DNA of 64,000 nucleotides from Cystobacter ferrugineus (GTDB lineage: Bacteria > Myxococcota > Myxococcia > Myxococcales > Myxococcaceae). The stretch covers positions 51,763 through 115,762 of the forward strand of contig NZ_MPIN01000019.1 of the NCBI RefSeq assembly GCF_001887355.1, given 5' to 3'. A program made the position numbers and the translations under genes. Positions 32,099-36,995 of this stretch are shown here, in pieces; positions within the stretch are counted from its first letter, which is position 1, and the number at the start of each line of letters is the position of its first letter. The notes beneath the pieces are model-generated. The model was given only the letters and a program-made list of their open reading frames with translations. It was not told the DNA's origin and searched no databases.

Positions 32099-33271
32099 CT
32101 AGCCGCCCGCGGCCAGCACGCGCGCGAGCGGCCCCAGGGCGGCGGCGAAGACGTCCGGGTGCGTCAACAGCGACAGCACGAGGAAGGCACCTCCCCGGAA
32201 GTCATAGAAGTATCCCGGCTGCACGCTCACCCCCTCCTCCAGCAGGGCCAGACACGTGGCCTCCTCGCCGGGCTCCAGGGGAATGCGCAACACGGCGCTC
32301 CAGCCGCCCTGAGCGGGCACGACGTCCCAGGGTGCTCCCGCGGGCCGGGCCTCGAGCAGCCGGCGCCGGTTCTCCTTCACCCGCGCGAGCACCGCGCCCT
32401 GGAAGCGAGGCGCGTGGGCCAGCCACTCCGGCAGGCTGAGCTGCACGGGCGTGTTCACCGGCAGGTACGTGTCCGCCACCAGCTCCAGGCGCGCCAGGGC
32501 CTCGTCCCGCGCCGCCTCGGGTCCCCCCACGTGCATCCACGCGAGCTTGAGGCCCGGCAGGCCCGCGACCTTCGACAGCCCGGACAGGCTGAAGGTGGGC
32601 ATCGGCAGCTCCCGCCCGGCCACCGAGCCCACCCGCCCCGGCTCCTCGCCCCAGGCGAAGTCGGAGAAGACCTCGTCCGACACGAGCGCGAGTCCGGCCC
32701 GCGCGCACAGGGTACTCAGCGCCTCCAGCTCGCCCTCGTGCAGGTAGTGGCCCGTGGGGTTGCCGGGATTCACCACGAGCACCGCCCGCGTGCGCGCGTC
32801 ACGCGCGGCGTCCACCGCGTCCACGTCCAGGCCGAAGCCATGCGCGCGGGGCAGGCGGTAGGTGCGCGTCTCCACCCCTTCCAGCCGGGCGAGGTACTCG
32901 AAGAGCGGGTAGCTGGGCGCGGGGACGAGGACGTTGTCCCCCGGCTCGCACAGCAGCTTGAAGAGCCAGCCGTATGCCTCGCTCGTGCTCGCCGAGAGGA
33001 CGAGGTGCTCGGGGCGGAGGGAGGCGCCCCTCGTGCCCAGGAAGGCCGCCACCGCCTCGCGGGCGGAGAGCAGGCCCAGGGACTCGGGGGCGTAGCGCAG
33101 GGCGTCGGGGTGGGCCAGCGGCGCCGGCGCTGGCAGGGGCAGCTCCACGCGGGTGGGGTTGGTCTCCGTGAGATCCATCACCGGCAGTCCCCGGGCACGG
33201 CGGCTGGCGAGCGCCAGGGCCAGGGCGTTCCACGTCCGCGCGAACCCCGTGCGCGCGGAGAAGGGACTCAC
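32099..33271 (-). CDS. class I/II PLP-dependent aminotransferase
   Basis: 390 residues. The fold-type I layout is plain: VLSASTSEAYGWLFKLL (cofactor phosphate region), NPGNPTGHYLHEGEL (substrate carboxylate-binding Asn), ALVSDEVFSDFAW (Asp for the pyridine ring and Tyr/Phe site) and SLSGLSKVAGLPGLKLAW with the Schiff-base Lys. A terminal Arg lies in the last 60 residues. It starts with GTG overlapping the previous stop (GTGA), so it is co-translated with the small upstream gene and may be the last gene of the biotin operon. It is not BioA, which is a class III enzyme. Substrate unknown. Confidence 0.88.
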   Translation of the reverse strand: MSPFSARTGFARTWNALALALASRRARGLPVMDLTETNPTRVELPLPAPAPLAHPDALRYAPESLGLLSAREAVAAFLGTRGASLRPEHLVLSASTSEAYGWLFKLLCEPGDNVLVPAPSYPLFEYLARLEGVETRTYRLPRAHGFGLDVDAVDAARDARTRAVLVVNPGNPTGHYLHEGELEALSTLCARAGLALVSDEVFSDFAWGEEPGRVGSVAGRELPMPTFSLSGLSKVAGLPGLKLAWMHVGGPEAARDEALARLELVADTYLPVNTPVQLSLPEWLAHAPRFQGAVLARVKENRRRLLEARPAGAPWDVVPAQGGWSAVLRIPLEPGEEATCLALLEEGVSVQPGYFYDFRGGAFLVLSLLTHPDVFAAALGPLARVLAAGG

Positions 33272-33546
33272 AGGCCCGTCTGCAGCATGGCGTTGGCCAC
33301 ACGCCGGATGAGCTCGCGGCGGATCTCCTTGCGGCAGTGGTCGATCGCCTTGGGGTGGGGCTTGGGCAATGTCCCCTCCCGCGAGCGGAGGGCGGTGCGC
33401 AACACCAGCTCGACCTTGGACGGCTCCAGATGGAAGAGCCGGGAGCCCTCCTTCTGCAGGAAGTAGGAGAGACCACGCGTATCGAGGAGCTTGGAGAGGT
33501 ATCGCCTGGAGTCAGCGAGGAGCGAGAGGTCGATGATGTCGGCCAT
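33268..33546 (-). CDS. small hypothetical protein, 92 residues
   Basis: Start chosen at ATG 33546 (MADIIDLSLLADSRRY); an earlier open stretch overlaps bioD and has no ribosome site. The protein is basic and helical, with KLLDTRGLSYFLQKEGSRLF and a Lys/Arg-rich C-terminus (HCRKEIRRELIRRVANAML), consistent with a small nucleic-acid- or protein-binding factor. No known family recognised. Its GTGA overlap with the aminotransferase gene and its position 103 bases behind bioD suggest it belongs to the same transcript. Confidence 0.6.
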   Translation of the reverse strand: MADIIDLSLLADSRRYLSKLLDTRGLSYFLQKEGSRLFHLEPSKVELVLRTALRSREGTLPKPHPKAIDHCRKEIRRELIRRVANAMLQTGL

Positions 33547-33649
33547 TCGCCGAGGTTTCTCACCCGGATCGAAACATGCGTCCATTTCGCGGCCGGACGG
33601 TGCGAAAATTTGATCTCCGGCGCGCATGCGAAACGCGGCGGAGGCCGAT

Positions 33650-34363
33650 TTATCGGGCTCGCGCGCGATCCATCCCGAGCAGCGGGGCGAGTGCCGCGCG
33701 GAACGCCGCGTGACGGCGTACCGGCTGCAACAGGTAGGGAACAGGGCCCAGGACACGGACGCCGTGGCGCTCGGCGATGAGCGCCGCGTTGTCGCGCTCG
33801 GAAGGGTCGCGCGTGGGCGAGCCGCGCGACAGCAGCACCGCCGCGACAGGGATGTTGCGCGCGGCGAGCGCCTCGAGGGACAGGGCCGTATGGTTGAGCG
33901 TGCCCAGGCCCGCGCGGGCGACGAGCAGCACGGGCAGGCCGAGCGTGGAGATGAGATCGATGACGTCGTGGGAGGAGTCGAGCGGGACGAAGAGGCCGCC
34001 GGCCCCCTCGACGACCACGGCCCCCTGCCCCACCCGCTCCCAGGCCGCGAGGGTGACGTTCCAGTCGGGCTCGCGGCCGAGGCGGCGCGCGGCGATGCCC
34101 GGGGCCAGGGGCGCGCGAAAGCGGTGGGGACAGACGATGTCCAGGGGCAGATCGCTGCGCGCGGCCTCGCGCAGGCTCAGCGCGTCCGCGGGTGCGCGCA
34201 GCGAGGCACAGCCGCTCTCGTAGGGCTTGAAGCCCTGGGGGGACAGCCCCGCGTCGGCCATCAAGGACAGCAGGGCACGGGAGGCCTGGGTCTTGCCCAC
34301 GCCGGTGTCCGTGCCCGTGACGAAGAAGCGGGGGGCCGGGGGAAGCGCACGTCTACGGGCCAA
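33650..34363 (-). CDS. bioD: dethiobiotin synthetase
   Basis: 237 residues, normal for BioD. The ATP-binding P-loop TGTDTGVGKT lies at about residues 16-25, the substrate region GFKPYESGC around 44 has the conserved Lys, and VVVEGAGGLFVPL near 116-128 carries the Glu of the second metal/phosphate site. It carboxylates 7,8-diaminopelargonic acid with CO2 and ATP to give dethiobiotin in the cytoplasm. It follows bioF by 14 bases. The enzyme for the preceding step, BioA, is not encoded in this window. Confidence 0.95.
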   Translation of the reverse strand: MARRRALPPAPRFFVTGTDTGVGKTQASRALLSLMADAGLSPQGFKPYESGCASLRAPADALSLREAARSDLPLDIVCPHRFRAPLAPGIAARRLGREPDWNVTLAAWERVGQGAVVVEGAGGLFVPLDSSHDVIDLISTLGLPVLLVARAGLGTLNHTALSLEALAARNIPVAAVLLSRGSPTRDPSERDNAALIAERHGVRVLGPVPYLLQPVRRHAAFRAALAPLLGMDRARAR

Positions 34364-34377
34364 GGGGCCTCCTTGTT

Positions 34378-35550
34378 TCAGAGGTTGAGCGCGCGCAGGG
34401 CGGCGAGCGCCAGGTCGAGCTGGCCCTCGGTATGCGCGGCGGACAGGCAGAAGCGCAAGCGGCTGGTGCCCTCGGGGACGGTGGGCGGGCGGATGGCCTT
34501 GACGAGCAGGCCCCGGGAGCGCAGCGCCTGGGACGCCGCGACGGCGCGCTCGGGCTCACCCACGATGACGGGGAAGACGGCGCTGCGCGGCTCCGCGGCG
34601 AAGCCGAGTTCTCGCAGTCCCTTGGAGAAGCGGTGGATGTTGCGCCACAGCCGGGCACGCAGCGCGTCATCGCGCTCGACGATGTCCACGGCGGCCTCGG
34701 CCGCGGCGCACAGGGCGGCGGGCAGCGCGGTGGAGTAGACGAGCGGCCGGGCGCGCTGGAGCACGAAGTCCACCACCGGGCGGGACGCGGCGATGTACGC
34801 GCCCAGCCCGCCGAGCGACTTGCTCAACGTGCCCATGCGCACGTCCACGGCCTCCTCCAGGCCCAGCGCCTCACACAGGCCCGCGCCGCGCTCGCCGAGC
34901 ACGCCCGTGGCATGCGCCTCGTCCACGAGGAGCGCCGCGCCGTGGGCCTGGCACACCTGGACGATGTCGCGCAGGGGGGCGAGGTCTCCGTCCATGGAGA
35001 ACACGGTGTCGGTGACGACGAGCCGGCGGCGCGCGGGGGTGGAGGCCAGGGCTCGCTCCAGCGCCTCGACGTCCGAGTGGGGGTAGACGACCGTGCGGGC
35101 GCGCGACAGCCGGCAGCCGTCGATGAGGGAGGCATGGTTGAGGGCGTCGGAGAAGACGGCGTCCTCGGGGCCCACGAGCGCCTGGAGGGTGCCCACGTTG
35201 GCCGCATAGCCCGAGTTGAAGAGGAGCACGGCCTCGGCGTGCTCGAAGGCGGCGAGCCGGGCCTCCAGCCGCTGGTGCACGGAGGTATCACCCACCACGA
35301 GCCGGCTCGCCCCGGAGCCCACGCCATGCGCCTCGAGCGCGGCGGCGGCCGCGGCGCGCACGGTGGGCGACGCGGCCAGGCCCAGGTAGTCGTTGGAGGC
35401 GAAGTTGACGAGCGTCTCGCCGCCCAGGCGCACGAGCGGCCCCTGGGCGGAGTCGAGCGGCTCCAGATACCGGCGCAGCCCCCGGGCCTTCAGGGCGTCG
35501 AGCCCCTCCTCGGCCCACGCGGTGACCACGCCTCCGGCACGCGCGCTCAC
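34378..35550 (-). CDS. bioF: 8-amino-7-oxononanoate synthase
   Basis: 390 residues from the GTG at 35550, which overlaps the bioB stop (GTGA); the frame continues upstream only as an antisense-like extension into bioB. It is a PLP enzyme that condenses pimeloyl-ACP/CoA with L-alanine, releasing CO2. Visible landmarks are [48 protein letters not shown] (Asp and His stacking on PLP) and the Schiff-base Lys244 in [11 protein letters not shown]. Length and motifs match BioF rather than the related 2-amino-3-ketobutyrate CoA ligase; the operon position settles it. Confidence 0.96.
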
Positions 35551-36578
35551 CGGGACGTGTCCGGCTCCAGCGGCCGGATGCCCGCCTTCTCCAGCAGGGC
35601 CATGTCCTGGGCGTACTCGGGGTTGCCCGTGGTGAGCAGCTTGTCGCCGAAGAAGATGGAGTTGGCGCCCGCGAGCATGCAGAGCAGCTGCGCCTCCTCG
35701 TTCATCTGCTTGCGGCCCGCGGACAGGCGCACCATGGACAGGGGCATGAGCAGGCGCGCCGTGGCGATGGTGCGCACCATCTCCACCGACTCCACCGGCT
35801 TCTGGCTCTCCAGGGGCGTGCCCTTCACCGCCACCAGCGCGTTGATGGGCACCGACTCCGGGTGCACCTCCTGGTTGGCCAGCGTGAGCAAGAGCCCGCA
35901 GCGGTCCTCCACGCTCTCGCCCAGGCCGATGATGCCGCCCGAGCACACGGAGATGCCCGCCTTGCGCACGCGCTCGAGCGTGCGCAGCCGATCCTCATAC
36001 GTGCGCGTGGTGATGATGTCGCCGTAGTGCTCGGCCGAGGTGTCCAGGTTGTGGTTGTAGGCGGACAGGCCCGCCTCGCGCAGCCGCTTCGCCTGGCTCT
36101 CGGAGAGCATGCCCAGCGTGGCACACGCCTCCATGCCGAGCGCCTTCACACCCTTCACCATCTCCAGGACGCTGTCGAACTGGGGACCGTCCTTCACCTC
36201 GCGCCAGGCCGCGCCCATGCAGAAGCGCGTGGCCCCCGCGGCCCGCGCCTGGGCGGCGGACGCGAGCACGGATTCCACCGGCATGAGCTTCTCGGCCTTC
36301 ACGCCCGTGTGGTGGCGCGCCGCCTGGGGGCAGTAGCCGCAGTCCTCGGGACAGCCGCCCGTCTTGATGGACAGCAGCGAGCACAGCTGCACCTTGTTGT
36401 CCTGGAAGACGGCCCGATGGACGGTCTGCGCCTTGTGGATGAGCTCCAGCAGTGGCAGCGCGTAGAGGGCGCGCACCTCGGGCAGCGTCCAGTCATGGCG
36501 GACGGTGACACCGGGAGGCGGCACGGCGAAGTGGGCGTGGCCGTGGAACGAGTCGTCGGAAGGGGCGTGGGCGGACAT
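35547..36578 (-). CDS. bioB: biotin synthase
   Basis: 343 residues from ATG 36578 (GAGGAG just before). A longer frame to 36629 is rejected because its start codon lies inside the BirA-type operator. BioB is a radical SAM enzyme that inserts sulfur into dethiobiotin. The radical-SAM 4Fe-4S ligands are Cys76, Cys80 and Cys83 (CPEDCGYC). Other family motifs are [23 protein letters not shown] and LSAGRKQM, whose Arg is the 2Fe-2S ligand. It is the first gene of bioB-bioF-bioD. Confidence 0.97.
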
Positions 36579-36622
36579 GGGCTCCTCGGAAGAGCGCCGA
36601 ACGTCGTGGATGGCCCCCATCG

Positions 36623-36654
36623 TTGTCAACCACGCGGCACGCCCGGGTTGACAA
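36623..36654 (-). promoter_or_regulatory. BirA-type biotin operator upstream of bioB
   Basis: TTGTCAACC (36623-36631) and GGTTGACAA (36646-36654) form a perfect 9-bp inverted repeat with a 14-base spacer. It differs from the classical BirA box TTGTAAACC-N14/16-GGTTTACAA by a single symmetrical base in each half. It lies 45 bases upstream of bioB, and each half contains a TTGACA that could be a -35 box. Binding by a BirA with an N-terminal HTH would repress the operon when biotin is plentiful. The match is seen; the regulator is inferred. Confidence 0.75.
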
Positions 36655-36668
36655 CCCCCGGGCGTGCC
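36636..36668. terminator. strong hairpin overlapping the biotin operator
   Basis: Perfect 12-bp stem GGCACGCCCGGG / CCCGGGCGTGCC with a 9-base loop TTGACAACC that contains most of one operator half-site. It lies downstream of the GlsB-like gene on the same strand, so it may end that transcript; whether it also affects bio transcription is open. Confidence 0.5.
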
Positions 36669-36725
36669 GGAAACCGCTCGGAAATCAGGGACTTGCAGGG
36701 GTCATCCCCCCGAAGGCCCGCTCCG

Positions 36726-36995
36726 TCAGGCGTGGATTCTGCGTCCGCGGCCCGCCCAGCCCGCCAGGAACAACACGACGATGGCTCCAATCACCGACAT
36801 GATGAGACCCGACGGCTGCAGGTCGAGGACGCTCCGGCCGGGCGAGAACAGCGCGCCGATGAAGCCACCCACGAACGAGCCCACGATACCCAGCAACATC
36901 GTCGCGATGAGACCCATGGACTGGCGGCCCGGAACCAGAGCACGCGCGATCAGACCCGCCACCAGACCCACCACGATGAACCAAATGATGCTCAT
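36726..36995 (-). CDS. GlsB/YeaQ/YmgE-family small membrane protein
   Basis: 89 residues, start at ATG 36995 with GAGGAGAG upstream. It has three hydrophobic helices with many Gly: SIIWFIVVGLVAGLIARALV, then LIATMLLGIVGSFVGGFIGA, then LIMSVIGAIVVLFLAGWAG. The VPGRQSMG loop after the first helix is typical of the transglycosylase-associated (GlsB/YeaQ/YmgE) family, known as stress-induced inner-membrane proteins of uncertain role. A much longer open frame covers it and runs antisense to radA; that extension is not real. Confidence 0.88.
   Translation of the reverse strand: MSIIWFIVVGLVAGLIARALVPGRQSMGLIATMLLGIVGSFVGGFIGALFSPGRSVLDLQPSGLIMSVIGAIVVLFLAGWAGRGRRIHA

Follow-up and report, generated by a model that had tools for sequence, protein, structure and literature searches.

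A candidate BirA operator in front of bioB in Cystobacter ferrugineus and its relatives in the Myxococcaceae

In both E. coli and B. subtilis it is established that BirA loaded with biotinyl-5'-AMP dimerises and binds its operator, and in E. coli the genes are laid out divergently as bioA/bioBFCD. The BirA signal was reportedly defined by Rodionov in 2002. The consensus TTGTAAACC-[N14/15]-GGTTTACAA is the form of this signal printed in PMC545781, and Table 1 of that paper includes, for Geobacter and Desulfuromonas, candidate BirA sites that carry the same C/G change as the site described here. In the portions of PMC545781 drawn on here, Myxococcus appears in the background only, the analysis being devoted to metal-reducing genera; PMC5343134 deals with the BirA regulons of gamma- and deltaproteobacteria, and the term 'myxococc' does not occur in its main text. 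Our literature search found no paper on a biotin repressor or a BirA regulon in myxobacteria. Here we describe a BirA-type site in front of the bioB gene of the myxobacterium Cystobacter ferrugineus, trace it through the genomes of its phylum, and consider it together with the domain architecture of the BirA proteins encoded in the same genomes.

The inverted repeat and the genes behind it

The window, i.e. the whole stretch of 64 kb of C. ferrugineus DNA that was analysed, contains an inverted repeat upstream of bioB (Table 1), which the initial annotation described as perfect. The sequence bears this out exactly: the full arms comprise 36622-36631 (GTTGTCAACC) and 36646-36655 (GGTTGACAAC), i.e. 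one extra base per side of the annotated site, with 14 bases between them. As expected of a BirA box, the inverted halves are close to TTGTAAACC and GGTTTACAA and lie at one of the two printed spacings (14 or 15), here N14. Sixteen of the 18 half-site bases agree with the consensus, and the other two are symmetrical to each other and known from Geobacter; the site thus departs from the printed consensus by a single symmetrical base pair, just as had been claimed. The box is located upstream of genes for biotin synthesis, namely bioB followed by bioF and bioD, and its edge (36623) is separated from the bioB ATG (36578, minus strand) by 44 bases; the position ahead of bioB therefore stands, while the distance of 45 bases first given is one too many.

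Table 1. Positions, in the window, of the site in front of bioB and of the associated elements and genes
Feature	Position	Strand	Basis or remark
BirA-type operator (candidate)	36623..36654	.	TTGTCAACC-N14-GGTTGACAA; conserved in relatives
13-bp perfect inverted repeat	36635..36669 (36635-36647 / 36657-36669)	.	CGGCACGCCCGGG / CCCGGGCGTGCCG; possible end of upstream transcript
TTGACA in the bioB-proximal half-site, putative -35 element	36624..36629	-	spacing test in 76 genomes; kept in G099
GACGTT, putative -10 element, 18-base spacer (17 in most relatives)	36600..36605	-	comparison; not in sigma-70 scan
GAGGAG, likely Shine-Dalgarno of bioB	36582..36587	-	read directly from sequence
bioB, biotin synthase, 343 aa from ATG 36578	35547..36578	-	TIGR00433 396.8 bits (cut-off 225); PF06968 and PF04055
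bioF (scanned stretch; true start further upstream)	34378..35421	-	TIGR00858 456.4 bits, above cut-off
bioD, dethiobiotin synthase (approximate start)	33650..34363	-	TIGR00347 129.9 bits, above cut-off
Transgly_assoc protein, 89 aa, upstream of bioB	36726-36995	same as bioB	PF04226

The site is the single match to its own pattern in the window at up to three mismatches, against a mean of 0.01 in 100 dinucleotide shuffles, and TTGTNAACC-N12..17-GGTTNACAA has one place in the entire genome (12.05 Mb, 42 contigs) and none in the backward-read control. When the genome was searched with TYGTCAACC-N14-SGTTGACRA at up to three mismatches, no other place fell below three, and the totals (7 forward, 5 reverse) were at the same level as those of the control (5 and 8). 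The initial annotation had proposed looking for further copies, but the rest of the genome holds no N14 site with 0-2 mismatches. At bioA and both bioY loci of this genome the best partial box matches have five mismatches, the same as the control. A regulon of several operators was rejected for this genome on these grounds: a second N14 site at that mismatch level was not found, and both the three-mismatch places and bioA/bioY are at control level. The two BioY genes (L119, L120) and bioA (L115) are situated far from the bioB cluster, with no recognisable box.

Two longer in-frame starts have to be considered for bioB. One of them, the TTG at 36629, falls within the box and is excluded, as had been maintained; the other is an ATG at 36620, immediately past the box. 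The latter frame is not kept in G091 and G092, since box and ATG are 43 bases apart there and 44 in C. ferrugineus, and the transcription start predicted from the promoter discussed below lies downstream of it. The three genes bioB, bioF and bioD are predicted to be co-transcribed. Downstream of bioD and on the same strand (window 32099-33756) lie an ORF of 162 aa that matches no family and the gene of a PLP aminotransferase (PF00155), both of which are perhaps part of the same transcript.

A birA gene with an N-terminal HTH, another check proposed at the outset, is present in the genome. The one PF03099 ligase that we found (352 aa) shows an HTH_11 domain (PF08279, residues 33-84, 49.5 bits, cut-off 25), the ligase domain at 115-237 and a C-terminal PF02237 (BPL_C) domain at 302-347, each scoring above its cut-off. 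With the HTH, ligase and C-terminal domains in one chain it classifies as a Group II biotin protein ligase, and the BirA of this genome thus includes a DNA-binding domain. It aligns with the E. coli BirA structure 4wf2_A (E 7e-43) from residue 38 on, the HTH included. Since the sole ligase found carries the HTH, C. ferrugineus does not present the situation, named in the initial annotation as the one to set against its proposal, of a genome with only an HTH-less BirA and another biotin regulator. The gene beside the ligase looks, by eye, like coaX.

Judged from these sequences, the palindrome is very probably the BirA operator of bioB-bioF-bioD, by means of which BirA would shut off the promoter when biotin is plentiful. 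Under such conditions BirA with biotinyl-5'-AMP would dimerise and bind both half-sites, and the bound protein would keep RNA polymerase off the bioB promoter. When biotin is scarce, BirA would use the adenylate to biotinylate carboxylases and leave the DNA, and the genes would be expressed.

Conservation and loss of the box

We searched 195 genomes of the phylum, 96 of which constitute the family of the window (f1, taken as Myxococcaceae). We found bioB in 90 of these 96, and 86 of the 90 have the box beside it: 75 as scored loci, two by sequence (G110, G105) and nine by coordinates (G073, G076, G078, G080, G086, G124, G130, G135, G136). Upstream DNA was fetched for 80 of the 90 bioB loci, and 79 were scorable, G073 being too short. 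There is a clear gap in the scores: 75 of the 79 loci have at most three mismatches of 18, six to eight are counted in the remaining four, and none falls between, and the best score in the reversed control is five mismatches, none of its 99 loci having three or fewer. The strict pattern is present in 78 of the 96 f1 genomes. The six without a detected bioB, several of which are incomplete assemblies, have no strict box. In G086 the box is 37 bases from a broken bioB, a fragment beginning at residue 82, and the contig is therefore abnormal.

Across 76 aligned loci with 21 genus labels, 11 of the 18 half-site positions are invariant; this alignment includes G155, a genome of another family with a degenerate box (2 mismatches) that is left out of the f1 counts. 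The spacers of the same 76 loci comprise 70 distinct sequences, those of 14 bases having a mean pairwise identity of 0.37. The distal half reads TCGTCAACC in most Myxococcaceae. A second place matching the strict pattern, with GTTCACAA, exists in three f1 genomes (G075, G078, G081). At the two of these that were fetched (L131 and L132; G075 and G081) no bio gene was recognised, and the second place is probably unrelated to BirA. In all three it has the form TCGTCAACC-N14-CGTTCACAA, with a spacer that holds a palindrome of its own.

The four exceptions among the 90 bioB genomes are G143, G144, G145 and G099. The first three belong to one genus with genomes of 2.1-2.7 Mb (bioB loci L144, L143 and L142), and their BirA proteins are matched only from residue 90-96 on; when roughly 1.5 kb of upstream DNA was searched by tblastn, none of them yielded an HTH. 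In the other f1 genomes, among the matches listed, the BirA match extends into the HTH, save for G139, with no BirA match among those listed, and for G086 and G107, where contig ends cut the match. G099 is an exception of a different kind: its BirA, split across two contigs, bears the HTH, and it is the left half-site that has been lost, with TTGACA kept and CAGGTT 18 bases further on. All four retain TTGACA or TTGACT in the absence of the palindrome. A three-mismatch place in G143 (spacing 16, 313 bases upstream) was dropped, as its left half alone is good and the N14/15 scoring gives it seven mismatches. The family thus contains natural experiments: three genomes in which the BirA HTH and the box are both gone, and one in which half of the box is gone and the promoter half kept. 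The box is conserved at orthologous genes (86 of 90) and lost along with the HTH in three of the four exceptions. This pattern, together with the HTH-bearing BirA of C. ferrugineus itself, supports the predicted biotin-responsive repression by a DNA-binding BirA put forward in the initial annotation.

Boxes are also found beyond the family. In f3, another family of the order, 14 of 24 genomes contain the strict box; in nine of them, judged by coordinates, it immediately precedes the BioB match. The one f3 BioB that was scanned is a true BioB (TIGR00433, 342.5 bits), only 33% identical to that of the window. Six of the seven second loci fetched from f3 have the box 31-85 bases from a bioH-like gene with a bioC-like gene behind it; at the remaining locus neither of the two was matched. 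At L124 (G038) the box is present with no bioH or bioC match, and the locus fetched for the single strict place of G026 has no BioB, BioH or BioC match. The names bioH and bioC are likely, not certain, since two BioH-like proteins and one BioC-like protein matched the BioH and BioC models below the curated cut-offs, one of the former scoring slightly higher with another alpha/beta-hydrolase model. Among the other non-f1 bioB loci fetched (n=20), a recognisable box is found only in G155, where it is degenerate. In at least 12 of the 19 genomes whose loci in this set are box-less, the BirA match extends into the HTH (confirmed by tblastn in G021, G056, G161 and G163), and the 300 bases or so around bioB contain no box. 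A BirA may thus bear the HTH although bioB has no box.

These observations bear on the proposal that the palindrome is bound not by BirA but by another regulator, e.g. one of the TetR or GntR type such as BioQ or BioR. Genomes of the 12-Mb class encode many repressors, and the order includes several genomes whose BirA bears the HTH but whose bioB has no box, as would suit such a regulator. However, the halves and the N14 spacing fit the BirA signal and its Geobacter variants as printed, the three box-less f1 genomes are the very ones with an HTH-less BirA, and the box recurs before the bioH-bioC-like genes of f3. We accordingly regard a different regulator as unlikely and retain BirA as the protein predicted to bind the site.

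Promoter and hairpin at the site

The bioB-proximal half-site contains TTGACA, and in 53 of the 76 aligned genomes this is followed after 17 bases by nAnnnT. The latter motif is found at a spacing of 18 in four genomes (C. ferrugineus included), at 19 and at 12 in one each, and at 13-16 and 20-23 in none; with genus weighting, the 17-base spacing accounts for only 9.2 of 21 genera, the other spacings for at most 1.6. The -10 element of C. ferrugineus itself is weak and requires the 18-base spacer. A simple sigma-70 consensus scan of 36500-36800 called no promoter, and the promoter reading therefore rests on the comparison across genomes. This comparison indicates that the half-site nearer to bioB probably also serves as -35 element of its promoter; transcription is predicted to start about 15 bases before the ATG. 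In that case BirA, once bound, would cover the promoter and thereby repress the genes. In G060 (L106) there is no such -10 element; a GC-rich hairpin with a T run, noted by eye between box and bioB at the position taken by the -10 element in relatives, could be a terminator or attenuator.

The 13-bp inverted repeat overlapping the site lies between the Transgly_assoc gene and the box, and its 9-base loop contains most of the distal operator half. Folding of the strand gives a z of -2.85, with 2 of 200 shuffles equally good, and no T-tailed terminator was called at this hairpin. By eye, its near-perfect form is confined to the genus of C. ferrugineus. It is possibly the end of the transcript of the upstream gene. 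An RNA attenuator was set aside, as the hairpin is upstream of the predicted transcription start and, again by eye, restricted to the one genus.

Promoter and hairpin could together be taken to explain the repeat as mainly a promoter and terminator feature, in which TTGACA serves as the -35 element and the palindromic look stems from a hairpin ending the upstream Transgly_assoc gene. Such a reading would account for TTGACA with its downstream nAnnnT, for the overlap of the perfect 13-bp hairpin with the distal half, and for the four f1 exceptions, which keep TTGACA or TTGACT with no palindrome. Yet a promoter has no need of the distal TYGTCAACC, a half that is retained, next to freely varying spacers, under 20 further genus labels, and the perfect hairpin appears, by eye, in the own genus only; we hence consider this reading very unlikely. 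That the palindrome arose by chance, for which there is just the general occurrence of short palindromes, is refuted by its conservation in 86 of the 90 bioB-bearing family genomes and runs against an expectation of 0.01 in the window and a single occurrence in 12 Mb, so that its probability is negligible.

Combining the BirA operator with the promoter leads to a broader proposal for the Myxococcaceae, to which we lean by a modest degree. The BirA operator and the bioB promoter would have merged, with the proximal half serving both as BirA half-site and as -35 TTGACA, and it would thus be the promoter that holds the C/G change relative to the classical box in place. Where repression was lost, be it with the HTH of BirA in the one genus of reduced genomes or, as in G099, with the distal half, what survives would be the TTGAC(A/T) half alone. 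Where the box is present, the regulon that it defines would have been reduced to a single operon that includes neither bioA nor the bioY transporters.

Relation to described BirA systems

The site would place the biotin genes of the Myxococcaceae in a BirA regulon and offers a single, compact and testable operator-promoter. With B. subtilis it shares a Group II BirA, the binding of which depends on biotin and ATP in that organism (PMC4016012). According to the same paper's account of the operators, however, their sequences and spacing in B. subtilis are unlike those of E. coli, and there are three of them, two outside the bio operon; a second site of this kind was not found in the Cystobacter genome.

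The site also resembles the E. coli bioO operator: the outer and inner bases and the spacing are the same, and control would likewise be exerted at a single operator by a ligase-repressor bearing an HTH. The differences are one symmetrical base pair and the lack of a divergent bio promoter at the Cystobacter site.

Close counterparts are also the sites listed for Geobacter and Desulfuromonas in PMC545781. Their half-sites are the same, C/G occupying the fifth position, and are again separated by N14, as in TTGTcAACC-[N14]-aGTTgACAA for bioB of G. sulfurreducens, and as reported there the site likewise precedes bioB, with birA separate and unregulated. They differ in number, with one or two sites per genome (at bioB and at bioF or bioW) in the entries of that paper, whereas Cystobacter has one, before the bioB of bioB-bioF-bioD. 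Among the sites tabulated there, those of Geobacter and Desulfuromonas already show in print how C/G replaces the classical base pair, and the myxobacterial site is for the rest an ordinary regulatory element, one that the family has kept.
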